Assembly (NCBI GenBank): GCA_900314635.1
Contig: OMVY01000005.1
Location: 1 to 64,000 of the forward strand
Reading direction: 5' to 3'
Length of the DNA: 64,000 nt
Origin: an uncultured Methanobrevibacter sp.
Lineage (GTDB): Archaea; Methanobacteriota; Methanobacteria; Methanobacteriales; Methanobacteriaceae
A model generated the notes under the pieces. The model worked only from the letters and a program-made list of their open reading frames with translations, was not told where the DNA came from and ran no database searches. This document shows, piece after piece, positions 3,241 to 45,583 of the stretch. The position numbers were made by a program, and so were the translations under genes. The stretch's first letter is position 1; each line of letters opens with the position of its first letter.

Positions 3241-3432
3241 ATGGCAGTAGAACCACACAAACATTGTCCGGTATGCGGTACACCGATACCTATGAAAGAG
3301 AGAGTATGTTCATCAGATTGTGAGAAAGTATTGGAAGGAAGACAACAGCAGATTAAAAAAAGCAGAATTATGCTGTTTGCAGTTATCGTAATATTCATTC
3401 TTGTCTGGGCATACTTCATGTTCTTGAGATAG
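3241..3432 (+). CDS. Small zinc-ribbon membrane protein (DUF2116-like)
   Basis: A 63-residue protein with an N-terminal CPVCGTPIP zinc-binding turn (Cys 9 and 12), a second pair C-x3-C near residues 23-27, a charged linker, and one C-terminal membrane helix (about residues 43-61). This layout matches the archaeal DUF2116 family, whose function is unknown. The AAGGTGAT ribosome site is well placed. It is likely monocistronic. Confidence 0.75.
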   Translation: MAVEPHKHCPVCGTPIPMKERVCSSDCEKVLEGRQQQIKKSRIMLFAVIVIFILVWAYFMFLR

Positions 3433-3448
3433 ACAATAAAATTGATTT

Positions 3449-3552
3449 AAAAAAAAATTAAAATTCAACCATGCTCTAAAATAGACTATGAAAATGAATT
3501 AAAAAAAAATTAAAATTCAACCATGCTCTAAAATAGACTATGAAAATGAATT
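3449..3552. repeat. 52-bp tandem repeat, two copies
   Basis: Two near-identical 52-bp units lie between the zinc-ribbon gene and the YbjQ-like gene. Each contains TTCAACCATGCTCTAAAATA followed by GACTATGAAAATGAATT and an A-tract. The matching cytosines at 3466 and 3518 fix the period at 52. Confidence 0.9.
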
Positions 3553-3596
3553 AAAAAAAAAATTAAAATTTAAAATTATTATTAAGTTGTGATTAA

Positions 3597-8263: not shown

Positions 8264-8325
8264 TAATTAAGATTATTTGAAATTTTATAAATAAAGAATA
8301 TTTACATTATCCATAGGTGTTAAAA

Positions 8326-8805
8326 ATGAGAGAAATGGAAGAAAAAATGAACAAACACGAATTTAATCTCAGCGGACATCTCTGGGGAATAAACCGCTCC
8401 CATAAAATATATTTGAAACACTTTGCAGATGAAGTAGGCGTCACTCTCGGCCAATATCCATACCTTGTAGCATTGTCTTACGATGAAAATTTAAATCAGG
8501 ACGATATTGCAAAATTATTCCAAATAGATAAATGCGGAGTTTCCCGTGCTTTAAAGAAATTGGAAGCTCAGGGACTGATAGAAAGGACACCTGATCCAGA
8601 CAATCGCAGAAGCAATATCATCACACTTACTGAAAAAGGTCGCAAGGCTGGAAAATACATTAAGGACAAGGATGACGAATGGGAAGAGTTCATCTATGAA
8701 AATATAGGAATAGACAAGGAGATTATACAAAAATACATTAGGAAAATATTATTTGAATCCGCAGAACTTGTAGAGCAATACAAAGAGGATAGTTGTAAAA
8801 AATAA
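8326..8805 (+). CDS. MarR family transcriptional regulator
   Basis: A winged-helix regulator of about 159 residues. The DNA-binding part is visible in the middle: a helix LNQDDIAKLFQIDKCGVSRA (about residues 60-79) followed by LKKLEAQGLIERTPDPDNRR, where the D-x-R-R wing is the MarR hallmark, and then TLTEKGRKAGK. MarR proteins act as dimers and usually repress their own gene or a neighbour until a small ligand binds. The frame opens at a GTG (8317), but GGTG lies 7 bases before the ATG at 8326. The aldo/keto reductase gene follows on the same strand and is a possible target. Confidence 0.88.
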   Translation: MREMEEKMNKHEFNLSGHLWGINRSHKIYLKHFADEVGVTLGQYPYLVALSYDENLNQDDIAKLFQIDKCGVSRALKKLEAQGLIERTPDPDNRRSNIITLTEKGRKAGKYIKDKDDEWEEFIYENIGIDKEIIQKYIRKILFESAELVEQYKEDSCKK

Positions 8806-10658: not shown

Positions 10659-12458
10659 TTATTCACTCTCATAACTTTGACTATGCAAAGTATTATAATA
10701 ATATCCTTTATTCAACATGAGCTCATCATGAGTTCCCTCTTCAATTATCTGACCATCATCGATTACAATAATCTTATCAGCATTTCTAATGGTTGAAAGC
10801 CTGTGGGCAATGATAAAACTGGTTCTGTTTTCCATCAGCCTGTCCATGGCCTTTTGAATCAGTTTTTCAGTCCTTGTATCAACGCTGGAGGTAGCCTCAT
10901 CCAAAATGAGAACCTCCTTTTTGGAGAGGATTGTTCTTGCAATTGTAAGGAGCTGTTTTTGACCATGGGAAATATTATCGGAATCCTCATTCAAAAGGGT
11001 GTCATAGCCCTCAGACAATTGCCTTACAAAATTATCCACATAAACCTGTTTTGAAGCATCTACAATCTCCTCATCTGTTGATGTGAGGTTTCCATATTTT
11101 ATATTTGCCCTGATTGTATCTGAGAAAAGCCAGGAATCCTGTAAAACCATTCCTATATGGGATCTTAATGAATGCTTGTCATACTCATTAATGTTTATGC
11201 CATCTATTTTTATCTCTCCGCTGTCGATGTCATAGAACCTCATGAGCAATTTGACTATGGTGGTCTTGCCTGCTCCAGTCTCACCTACAATAGCTATTTT
11301 CTCCCCTTTTCTAGCTTCAAAAGAGAGGTTTTTGATTATCGGATTGTCTGGATTGTATCCAAAGCATACATTTTCAAAGCAAATGCTCTCTCTGATTTCA
11401 TCAAGCTCCTTGTGTGAAGGGTTCTCCTCCTCATCCATTTCCAAAAATTCGAAAATCCTCTCGCTTGCAGCCATTGCAGTTTGAACCAGGTTCATGACTC
11501 TAGTAATCTGCTGGATCGGATTTGTGATGTTTTTAGAGTATTGGAAGAATGCCAGAATATCTCCAACAGCCATTGCTTTTTGAAGCACGAATACAGCCCC
11601 TAAGACAGCAATGACAACATATTCGAAGTTTGATATGAAATTCATGAGCGGTCCTGAGAGGCTTGAGAAGAATTGTGATTTCCATTCGTTCTCATACCAG
11701 CTCTCATTGTCCTCTTCAAATTTTAGAATGGAAGGCTCCTCTTGATTGTATGCGCGAATTATGTCATGGCCGGTGAATGTCTCTTCAATCTGACCATTCA
11801 AGCTTCCTTTAAAGACCAATTGCTTAAGGAAATAGCTTTGAGTATTATTTGTAATGAAACGGATGACATAAAATCCGATTGGAATCAATGCAAGGGTTAT
11901 CAAAGCAAGATAGATATTTATATAAAGCATCATCACAGCTGCTCCGATGATTGTGATAATCGCTGTTGTAAGCTGGATGAAAGCCTGTGTAATTCCATGC
12001 TGCAGGGAATCCACATCATTTGTTATTCTGGATAAGATATCTCCCCTCTGGTTATTGTCAAAACTTCCCATAGGAAGATGGGTCACCTTTTCCAAAAGTC
12101 TCTCCCTTAGATTATAGCTTATTTTTGTTGAAATTTCAACAAGGAAATAGCTTTGAAGATATGAAAATACCGCACTGACGATATAGAGAATTACCACAAT
12201 TGTTAAAAGATTCAAAAGAGTGTTGAAATCAATTGTTCCTGTGTGCTGCATAAGTTTGTTTATTCCATCGAATATCAGGGTTGTAGCCCTGCCTATAAGA
12301 AGGGGAGCTATTACGCTGAACAATGTGGATATTACCGCACATATGATGGTCACTGCAAGACGAAGTTTGTAGTCGCTTAAAAGACCTAATATGTTCATAA
12401 TAGCTTTTCTAGTATCTACAGGCTTTTCAGGAGGTTTTCTTCTCATTCGAGGAGGCAT
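10659..12458 (-). CDS. ABC exporter half-transporter, consensus ATPase subunit
   Basis: A 599-residue type IV ABC exporter subunit: six membrane helices (about residues 30-310) and a C-terminal ATPase with Walker A GETGAGKTT (about 396-404), Q-loop in MVLQDSWLF, Walker B LILDEATSSVD with the catalytic Glu, and the switch His in IIAHRLSTI. The signature is ISHGQKQ rather than LSGGQ. This pairs with the degenerate Walker B and H-loop of the other subunit (12753-14468), so the two should form a heterodimer with one weakened ATP site, as in BmrCD or TM287/288. A strong GGAGGTGA ribosome site precedes the ATG. The substrate (drug, lipid or peptide) is unknown. Confidence 0.92.
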   Translation of the reverse strand: MPPRMRRKPPEKPVDTRKAIMNILGLLSDYKLRLAVTIICAVISTLFSVIAPLLIGRATTLIFDGINKLMQHTGTIDFNTLLNLLTIVVILYIVSAVFSYLQSYFLVEISTKISYNLRERLLEKVTHLPMGSFDNNQRGDILSRITNDVDSLQHGITQAFIQLTTAIITIIGAAVMMLYINIYLALITLALIPIGFYVIRFITNNTQSYFLKQLVFKGSLNGQIEETFTGHDIIRAYNQEEPSILKFEEDNESWYENEWKSQFFSSLSGPLMNFISNFEYVVIAVLGAVFVLQKAMAVGDILAFFQYSKNITNPIQQITRVMNLVQTAMAASERIFEFLEMDEEENPSHKELDEIRESICFENVCFGYNPDNPIIKNLSFEARKGEKIAIVGETGAGKTTIVKLLMRFYDIDSGEIKIDGININEYDKHSLRSHIGMVLQDSWLFSDTIRANIKYGNLTSTDEEIVDASKQVYVDNFVRQLSEGYDTLLNEDSDNISHGQKQLLTIARTILSKKEVLILDEATSSVDTRTEKLIQKAMDRLMENRTSFIIAHRLSTIRNADKIIVIDDGQIIEEGTHDELMLNKGYYYNTLHSQSYESE

Positions 12459-12470
12459 GATTTCACCTCC

Positions 12471-12695
12471 AAACTTTTAGAAAAAGTTTGATCAAAACTG
12501 AAAACTTTAAAATCCAAACTTTTAGAAAAAGTTTGATCAAAACCAAAAACAGCACCCTCCAAACTTTTAGAAAAAGTTTGACCAAAACTGAAAACTTTAA
12601 AATCCAAACTTTTAGAAAAAGTTTGATCAAAACCAAAAACAGCACCCTCCAAACTTTTAGAAAAAGTTTGATCAAAACTGAAAACTTTTAAATCC
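12471..12695. repeat. 45-bp hairpin tandem repeat, five copies, between ABC genes
   Basis: The segment CAAACTTTTAGAAAAAGTTTG recurs with exact 45-bp spacing, its AAACTTTTAG part starting at 12471, 12516, 12561, 12606 and 12651. Each copy can fold into a hairpin (arms CAAACTTT and AAAGTTTG). Two spacer types alternate, so the true period is 90 bp: one contains ACTGAAAACTTTAAAAT, the other ACCAAAAACAGCACC. Because 45 is divisible by three, long open frames run through the block on both strands; I regard these as by-products. The last copy on the minus strand ends at the GGAGG of the downstream ABC gene's ribosome site. Confidence 0.92.
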
Positions 12696-12752
12696 AAAAA
12701 GCGACTGAAGCAAATACCGTTCCTATGATTAAAAGGCATCATATTTGAATAT

Positions 12753-14468
12753 TCAAGCATAATCATAAAAGGCCTCCATTTGATCAATTTGAGTATTTAC
12801 AATCTCCCTATATATACTGCATGAATCTATTAAACTTGAATGAGTTCCCTTGTCAATTATCTCGCCGTTGTCCATCACTAAAATCTCATCTGCATCCATG
12901 ATAGTTGAAATCCTTTGAGATACAATCAATATGGAAGAACCTTCAAGTCTTTTCAAATTTTTCTTTACTTTTGCTTCAGTATTCATGTCCAATGCTGAAA
13001 AGCAGTCATCAAACAAGTAGAAGTCATGGCCTGCAATAATTGCTCTGGCTATTGACAAACGCTGCTTCTGGCCTCCTGAGAAGTTATTGCCTCCTTGTGC
13101 AACCTCTTCATCCAAATCTTCAATGAAATCCGCCTGAGCAAAGCTCAAAGCGTTTTGCATCTCCTCATCGCTTGCATCAGCTTTCCCCATCTGCAGATTG
13201 GAACGGATGGTGCCTTGAAATAGCAAGGCCTTCTGAGGAGTGAAGCTGATTTTCTCCCTCAAGGAGTGAAGATTGAATTCCTTGATATTTCGACCACCCA
13301 TCAGAATCTCTCCTTCGCTTGGATCCTGAAGACGGGGAATCAGATTCAGTATTGTGGATTTTCCGCTCCCTGTTCCGCCGATAATGGCTGTGGTCTTTCC
13401 AGGCTCAAGAGAGAAATTGATGTCTTTCAAAGTCGGCTTCTCACTTCCAGGATATTGATATGAGACATTTTTGAATTCTATAGAAGACCCAGACTCTATG
13501 AATTCCTCATCGCCGTCTGTAATGGAGAGGTCCATTTCCAGAACCTCATCGATACGCCTTGCAGAGACTAGAATTCTTGGAAGAATGATGAAGAAACCTC
13601 CTATCATCAAGAAGGATGATACGATTTGAGTTGAATACTGTGTGAATGCAATGATGTCCCCGGTCAGTATATTGCCTGCAAGAGCGTCATATGCTCCAAA
13701 GTATAATATCAGCACAATCATCAGATTCATTATCAGAATCATTAGAGGCAGCATGATCAGCATGTTTCTAAAGAGATAAAGGTTCACATCCAGAAAGTTC
13801 TGGTTTACCTTTTGAAACTTCGCTTCTTCGTAGTCCTGCCTTACAAAGGCCTTGATGACTGGAATTCCAATTAAAATTTCCCTGGATGTTTGATTTATCT
13901 TGTCGATGATTTCCTGTATCTGTTTAAATAAAGGAATAACCCTGACCATGACTACAATCAAAGTCAAAGCCACGGCAACAAAGGTGACAAGGATGATCCA
14001 TGAAAGATTGGTTCCCAGCTGATAAACCTTTATAATACTTCCAACACCCAATAAAGGTGCGAAAAGCAGAGTTGTGAAAAGCATGATCAATACATTCTGA
14101 ATCTGGTTGATGTCATTGGTTGAACGGGTGATTAATGAAGACCTTGAAATCTCATTCAGCTCATGGTTTGAATATTTGAGAACCTGCTTGTAGACCATTT
14201 TTCTTAAATCCTTGGCATATCCTGATGAAACCCTGCTTGAGAAGAATGATGTGCCGACAGTTGCACAAGCGGATATCAGCACCATCACAAGCATCATAAT
14301 CCCAGTATCTATGATATAGGCAAAATCAGTGTTTTGAATTCCTATGTTTACAATGCTTGCAGTATAGGTGGGAAGTGTCAAATCACATGCAACCTGTACA
14401 AGTAAAAATAGCATGATGCATAACAATTGAGGAATTTTGGATTTGATTGGTTTCAACAGCTTTTTCAT
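12753..14468 (-). CDS. ABC exporter half-transporter, degenerate ATPase subunit
   Basis: A 571-residue ABC exporter subunit with six membrane helices (residues 10-300) and an ATPase domain: Walker A GGTGSGKST, a canonical FSGGQKQR signature, but Walker B FDD in YLFDDCFSALD, with Asp in place of the catalytic Glu, and SQRIST where the switch His is usual (Gln instead). These changes define the degenerate half of a heterodimeric exporter. The partner is the next gene (10659-12458), whose signature is altered on the matching face. The start has GGGTGAA before the ATG. The two genes are separated by about 295 bp holding five hairpin repeats, an unusual gap for such a pair. Confidence 0.92.
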   Translation of the reverse strand: MKKLLKPIKSKIPQLLCIMLFLLVQVACDLTLPTYTASIVNIGIQNTDFAYIIDTGIMMLVMVLISACATVGTSFFSSRVSSGYAKDLRKMVYKQVLKYSNHELNEISRSSLITRSTNDINQIQNVLIMLFTTLLFAPLLGVGSIIKVYQLGTNLSWIILVTFVAVALTLIVVMVRVIPLFKQIQEIIDKINQTSREILIGIPVIKAFVRQDYEEAKFQKVNQNFLDVNLYLFRNMLIMLPLMILIMNLMIVLILYFGAYDALAGNILTGDIIAFTQYSTQIVSSFLMIGGFFIILPRILVSARRIDEVLEMDLSITDGDEEFIESGSSIEFKNVSYQYPGSEKPTLKDINFSLEPGKTTAIIGGTGSGKSTILNLIPRLQDPSEGEILMGGRNIKEFNLHSLREKISFTPQKALLFQGTIRSNLQMGKADASDEEMQNALSFAQADFIEDLDEEVAQGGNNFSGGQKQRLSIARAIIAGHDFYLFDDCFSALDMNTEAKVKKNLKRLEGSSILIVSQRISTIMDADEILVMDNGEIIDKGTHSSLIDSCSIYREIVNTQIDQMEAFYDYA

Positions 14469-20048: not shown

Positions 20049-20210
20049 AATAAATTATCTTACATAATATAAATTAGTATATTCTCTCGGTTCATGCCCT
20101 TTTGTAAATATTTTTTGCAATAGGAAATAATCATATAAATATCAGTTCATATGACTTTTGATAGAAAGTATTATATACTTTTTTTATTAATATTTAATTA
20201 AGAAATTTTT

Positions 20211-20338
20211 CTTTTATAGGAGGAATTTTTTATAATTTATAAAAATTATTCTTTTATAGGAGGAATTTTTTATAATTTATAAAAATTATTCTTTTATATA
20301 TTGAATTTTTTATAATTTTTAAAAATTTTCTTTTATAC
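20211..20338. repeat. 40-bp tandem repeat, about three copies
   Basis: Two identical 40-bp units (20211-20250 and 20251-20290), each starting CTTTTATAGGAGGAATTTTT, are followed by a diverged third (20291-20330) and the start of a fourth. Each contains AATTTTTTATAATT followed by an inverse-like AAAAATT. The block lies just before the ATPase gene at 20381. The AGGAGG in each unit resembles a ribosome site with no start codon nearby. Confidence 0.88.
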
Positions 20339-20380
20339 AAAATGTTTTTTTATAGCAAAATATAAATGGGGTGAAAATCT

Positions 20381-45310: not shown

Positions 45311-45400
45311 GTCTAAACCATCATCCTAAGAACTTGATAACTGATTCTGGAACCTTTTTCTTGAATAAGTGGGTTCATATAATCAATGCTAGTCTGTGAA
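45311..45400 (-). pseudogene. Remnant of a transglutaminase-like gene
   Basis: Two blocks match the transglutaminase-like gene at 33110-33682 at base level: AACCATCATCCTMAG with the following AACTTGATA, and TGGAACCTTTTTCTTGAATA with AATCAATGCTAGTCTGT, corresponding to its centre and its start. About 200 bases between them are deleted. It shows that another copy of this module once lay here. Confidence 0.72.
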
Positions 45401-45409
45401 AAGAAAAAA

Positions 45410-45583
45410 TTGTTAAAAATCTGTTTAAAAAATAAGTACCGAAAAGTAATAATTGTGTAAAAATCTGTTTTAAAAAAAAAGTACCGAAAAATGATAATTG
45501 TGTAAAAATCTGTTTTAAAAAAAAGTACCGAAAAGTAATAATTGTGTAAAAATCTGTTTTAAAAAAAAAGAAAAGTACCGGAA
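45410..45583. repeat. 44-50 bp tandem repeat, four copies
   Basis: The units contain AAAATCTGTTTTAAAAAAAA, AAGTACCG and AAAAGTAATAATTGTGT. The AAGTACCG segment recurs near 45435, 45481, 45525 and 45575; unequal A-runs and small insertions cause the uneven period. It lies between the transglutaminase remnant and the radical SAM gene. Confidence 0.85.

Follow-up and report, generated by a model that had tools for sequence, protein, structure and literature searches.

We report that five regularly spaced hairpins between the two genes of an ABC exporter, in the 64-kb stretch of DNA from a methanogenic archaeon analyzed here (the window), belong to a dispersed class of hairpin elements and are not specific to the exporter. 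The dispersed family is a more interesting result than the array in the window. The array is an insertion that relatives lack, and its last hairpin adjoins the ribosome site of the second gene (Table 1). Our best explanation, to which we give about half of our confidence, is that a hairpin element dispersed among archaea was amplified here, separating two closely packed exporter genes and leaving translation of gene 2 partly uncoupled from that of gene 1.

Table 1. Features of the exporter locus and its hairpin array, in window coordinates
Feature	Position	Strand	Description
Gene 2	10659..12458	(-)	ABC exporter subunit, TM288-like; canonical Walker B DEATS (LDEATS)
107-codon open frame	12443..12766	(-)	crosses all five units; ends 16 nt inside gene 2
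Shine-Dalgarno region of gene 2	12459..12469	(-)	GAGGTGAAATC; first G of GGAGG is the last hairpin base
Tandem array	12466..12698	(-)	between the two ABC genes; five 45-bp units, two alternating versions, 90-bp super-period
Unit 1	12470..12497	(-)	TTTTGATCAAACTTTTTCTAAAAGTTTG (minus strand), exact 28-mer; hairpin foot adjoins GGAGGTG of gene 2
Unit 2	12515..12542	(-)	exact 28-mer
Unit 3	12560..12587	(-)	28-mer with one change (TTTTGGTC)
Unit 4	12605..12632	(-)	exact 28-mer
Unit 5	12650..12677	(-)	exact 28-mer
Gene 1	12753..14468	(-)	ABC exporter subunit, TM287-like; Walker B Glu to Asp (LFDDCFS)

The 21-nt palindromes of the array start at 12470, 12515, 12560, 12605 and 12650, exactly 45 bp apart, and each unit forms a perfect 9-bp stem with a 3-nt loop that is weak as RNA (-5 to -6 kcal/mol each). 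TRF finds both a 45-bp period (5.1 copies, 81% match) and a 90-bp period (2.6 copies, 97%), the better match of the latter showing that two spacers alternate. A first-pass annotation had described a 45-bp unit repeated five times, with two alternating spacers and a 90-bp super-period; TRF and the exact positions agree, while its 8-bp hairpin proves to have a stem of 9 bp and a loop of 3 nt. The palindrome CAAACTTTTAGAAAAAGTTTG has five exact matches in the window versus none in 100 dinucleotide shuffles, and no further copy lies outside the array in the 2.29-Mb genome at up to two mismatches. Behind units 3 and 5 stand degenerate copies of GGAGGGTG, which means that the gene 2 ribosome site is itself copied within the 90-bp unit. 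The 90-bp units are 97-99% alike, and from this identity the array, which is known from one genome only, likely arose by recent tandem amplification. A CRISPR array was rejected, since the two spacers alternate and repeat rather than being unique.

The best PDB matches of gene 1 and gene 2 are TM287 and TM288, and the pair shows the arrangement of that exporter type, two subunits with one catalytic site degenerate, here through the Walker B motif of gene 1. The first-pass description of a heterodimeric exporter with the array between its subunits is supported, as is its placement of the array's end at the ribosome site of the second gene: the end falls exactly at GGAGGTGAAATC-ATG, from which gene 2 is started, and the first G of this site doubles as the final base of the last hairpin. 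By sequence identity the exporter pair (10659-14468) is nearer to genomes of another genus (g5; up to 76% for gene 1) than to those of its own (64-68%), which suggests transfer or hidden paralogy. Joint acquisition of the array with a g5-type exporter was rejected: the exporter is closest to g5, yet g5 is almost entirely without the element.

In all 20 readable forward-strand loci of the family, the orthologous genes overlap by 4 or 13 nt or are separated by a gap of 1-44 nt. Genes 1 and 2 of the window lie 294 bp apart, which therefore marks a lineage-specific insertion, and the hairpin is absent between the exporter genes at all 29 other exporter loci. We propose that a REP-like archaeal hairpin element, tandemly amplified, would have inserted between overlapping or near-touching exporter frames. 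A gene 2 start of the ancestral type (GGAGG-N6-ATG inside gene 1) persists, with its ATG at 12766, and opens the 107-codon frame, although that frame may be open by chance. Ribosomes that formerly started gene 2 at the overlapping ATG would now begin on the 107-codon frame, which crosses the repeats. Gene 2 would be started from an isolated site behind hairpins, so that its translation would be partly uncoupled from that of gene 1. Judging from anatomy alone, the array probably alters translation of gene 2, and an effect on ribosome access is plausible. In genome G014 (C5:42646-42828, locus L258), four hairpins with a 54-bp period are inserted in a GGTACC-repeat region upstream of the gene 1 orthologue.

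The first-pass annotation had instead proposed a dedicated regulator of the subunit ratio, acting through pausing, RNA cleavage or ribosome access. Such a device would suit an array placed between the subunits and at the Shine-Dalgarno sequence, and the U-rich sense-strand spacers could cause partial archaeal termination. We nevertheless hold it to be improbable: no orthologous exporter carries the array, and the hairpin is not exporter-specific. The exporter-specific role is hence not upheld, with orthologous exporters lacking the array and the hairpin dispersed in related genomes.

A stronger rival, possible though less probable than partial uncoupling, is a neutral or selfish repeat: the element landed, was multiplied by replication slippage at the hairpin, and is tolerated since a ribosome site that gene 2 can use was preserved. 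Nine further intergenic tandem arrays with periods of 37-60 lie within the same 64 kb, so this genome may be prone to amplification in general, and neutrally. Elsewhere the same hairpin has formed arrays at different spacings, with a period of 39 bp in M. curvatus and ANME-1 and of 54 bp in G014. Against neutrality, the insertion retains a good Shine-Dalgarno sequence where the hairpin ends, the frame that begins at the old start is still open, and the placement of a hairpin before a start codon recurs at several unrelated genes. Among the other intergenic arrays of the window are those at 45398-45570, 20203-20354, 3429-3570 and 213-331, the first of which has a 45/89-bp double period like that of the exporter array.

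The 28-mer TTTTGATCAAACTTTTTCTAAAAGTTTG occurs exactly in at least 119 stretches of the GTDB genome collection, with zero matches for reversed-pattern controls. The hosts listed include several Methanobrevibacter, termite-gut Methanobacteriaceae, ANME-1 (Methanophagales), Methanomicrobiales, Woesearchaeota, Diapherotrites, Micrarchaeota, Aenigmatarchaeota and Altiarchaeota; the matches listed are from archaea only, from which absence in bacteria does not follow. At up to two mismatches, the 28-mer is found in 45 of 394 Halobacteriota genomes (controls 0). Within Methanobacteriota it is patchy by lineage, reaching 98 copies in genome G032 and 60 in G019, with none in nearly all genomes of g5 and g3. 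The 21-nt palindrome (up to two mismatches) is present in 16 of the 19 genomes of the window's genus, in up to 26 copies, and the reversed pattern in none of the 19. The first-pass annotation had counted scattering of the repeat over unrelated positions as evidence against its reading: at up to two mismatches the window's own genome shows no such scattering, but other genomes of the genus do, the 16 with the palindrome including the window's.

We find that the array's short hairpin represents, in its smallest version, a broader class of hairpins that have the tag AYCAAAA on one side (TTTTGRT on the opposite strand). This minimal form consists of CAAACTTTT-loop-AAAAGTTTG followed by the one-sided tag ATCAAAA (TTTTGAT on the other strand). 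The long form, CAAGCTTTT-inner stem-C-TTC-G-inner stem-AAAACCTTG-ACCAAAA, has the tag in common with it. The outermost C-G pair of the stem is swapped for T-A, G-C or A-T with pairing intact and the tag unchanged. Across 35 different inner sequences, 94.8% of long-form positions pair, versus a mean of 82.6% and a maximum of 87.5% in 500 sets of chimeras; chimeras were used rather than a covariance model, as MAFFT put the 5' arms in the wrong place when long and short forms were aligned together. Exact copies of the core AAAASYTTGAYCAAAA number 9-60 in most genomes of the genus, those that bear the element, and none in G009-G011, with 8 reversed-pattern matches over all 152 genomes. The window's own genome has 6 copies, five of them within the array, and two long forms elsewhere, one directly after the stop codon of a permease (L410) and one at L413. 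In the genus, the tagged hairpin is often followed by another conserved one, TAGTTGGGAGTA-n-CTCTTAACTA (L240, L265, L361 and others).

The element has a preferred place. On a core list of 60 sites from four genomes (G001, G002, G003 and G005), 61 of 62 long-form elements lie behind a stop codon that reads in the same direction, ordered hairpin-then-AYCAAAA; 53 are within 15 nt of the stop, and the commonest distance is 2 nt. Short forms in the genus are intergenic in 84 of 85 cases; 52 follow a stop codon by no more than 60 nt in the long-form orientation versus 4 in the opposite one, counts that are not independent, some positions being common to related species. In most species of the genus a tagged hairpin stands shortly after the stop codon of SufB-like and RadA-like genes, short in some species and long, with differing inner stems, in others; genomes G000, G009 and G011 have no tagged hairpin after either gene. 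In the opposite orientation, the hairpin foot lies against the start region of TatD-like, MGMT-like, flippase-like and lipoprotein genes (named by reading the sequences rather than by a family search), the arrangement seen in the window; the lipoprotein gene has three hairpins ahead of AAGGTGATAGAATG. Because the family's usual orientation is the other one, a function in the post-stop context is not simply transferable to the window.

The usual orientation raises the idea that the array, read on the plus strand, is a row of terminators halting antisense transcription, given that copies so oriented stand, within the genus, behind stop codons and ahead of T-rich tracts. However, no plus-strand gene lies directly upstream of the array and the T-tracts after the plus-strand copies are short (ACTTTAAAA), making this very improbable. 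Slighter still is the chance that the palindromes form an operator array for a DNA-binding regulator such as the product of the MarR-family gene at 8317-8805: perfect palindromes, regular spacing and a MarR-family protein nearby would fit, but the array lies within an operon, not at a promoter, and the element mostly follows the stops of unrelated genes (SufB-like, RadA-like, CTP synthase-like) and tRNAs and occurs inside tRNA introns.

In ANME-1 and DPANN, the element is found directly behind tRNA genes as well as inside tRNA introns. It lies within about 4 nt of the tRNA 3' end at genes for tRNA-Ile (L080, L116, L124, L130), tRNA-Thr (L108, L148) and tRNA-Gly (L012), and behind tRNA-Ile of four ANME-1-like genomes the element is exact while the DNA beyond has diverged. 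In ANME-1 genomes the 28-mer lies within a tRNA intron (anticodon region gcagcctcctaa) at L099 1646-1757, L082, L115 and L344, and L082 has two tandem copies.

An RNA role of the element is favored by its position behind stop codons and by the pairing of the inner stems. Recognition as single-stranded DNA, as for REPs, would also suit the frequent C-TTC-G loop, which reads C-GAA-G on the other strand, where the tag is 5' of the hairpin. We tentatively propose, with somewhat less confidence than we place in the exporter reading, an apparently undescribed class of tagged hairpins (variable inner stem, loop often C-TTC-G, AYCAAAA) that would be common to Methanobacteriales, ANME-1, Methanomicrobiales and DPANN, lie 1-3 nt behind stops and behind tRNAs, be recognized by a trans-acting factor, and be able to move or amplify into operon-rewiring arrays. 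If true, archaea own a REP-like hairpin family with a different tag, no RAYT and a near ruler-exact position behind stop codons, and the window illustrates that an element of this kind can separate tightly packed genes and bring in a new ribosome site.

The element is reminiscent of REPs, the GTAG/CGTC-tagged palindromes of REPIN/BIME, which are often found within 15 nt of stop codons and can form arrays (PMC3733652, PMC12306157). Both are hairpins of 20-45 nt with a conserved one-sided tag, multi-copy, extragenic and array-forming, and the element fits the definition of a REP as a 20-40 nt palindrome with many extragenic copies. Unlike REPs, its tag is TTTTGRT / AYCAAAA rather than GTAG or CGTC, its arrays run head-to-tail, the long form keeps almost strictly to one orientation relative to the gene, and no Y1/RAYT accompanies it: the Y1 transposase (RAYT, PF01797) has no match in the 19 genus genomes, nor in G032 and G019, the two richest (98 and 60 copies). 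Mobilization by RAYT/IS200-IS605 was rejected for a genus without Y1 transposase. A viral or plasmid origin was likewise rejected, no exact match being found in IMG/VR, phage and PLSDB searches: the exact 28-mer is absent from IMG/VR, where a looser search gave one match, and phage and PLSDB records have no match to the array. A long-form query returned only weak 23-nt Sinorhizobium matches (E 0.7).

A known RNA family was rejected as well, nothing in Rfam 15 reaching its gathering score at the array and only tRNAs doing so at 20 related loci. The hairpin sequence was not found in the open literature, nor did targeted literature searches return a description of the family. Like an intrinsic terminator, the long form is a stable post-stop hairpin, its loop mostly C-UUC-G, with a T-rich tract behind it; unlike one, it has the conserved AYCAAAA between hairpin and T-tract, and its short form also occurs in tRNA introns. 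Few hairpin terminators have been reported in archaea (PMC1852404), so that a hairpin conserved behind stop codons and always bearing the same 3' tag would offer a concrete signal to test, whether it serves to form 3' ends, to protect mRNA or as a mobile single-strand element. MITEs and minisatellites share with the element a tandem, non-coding and lineage-specific character, but we saw no terminal inverted repeats or target duplications, and the unit of the element is conserved across phyla. Rickettsia palindromic elements (compared in part from PMC3733652) are also small palindromes that can lie in frame inside genes, whereas the element is mostly intergenic, with another tag and another host. 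In M. filiformis (L112, L141), the 28-mer lies inside large reading frames, where it encodes the peptide FDQTFSKSL, and FDQTFSK peptides may mark the element in annotations.
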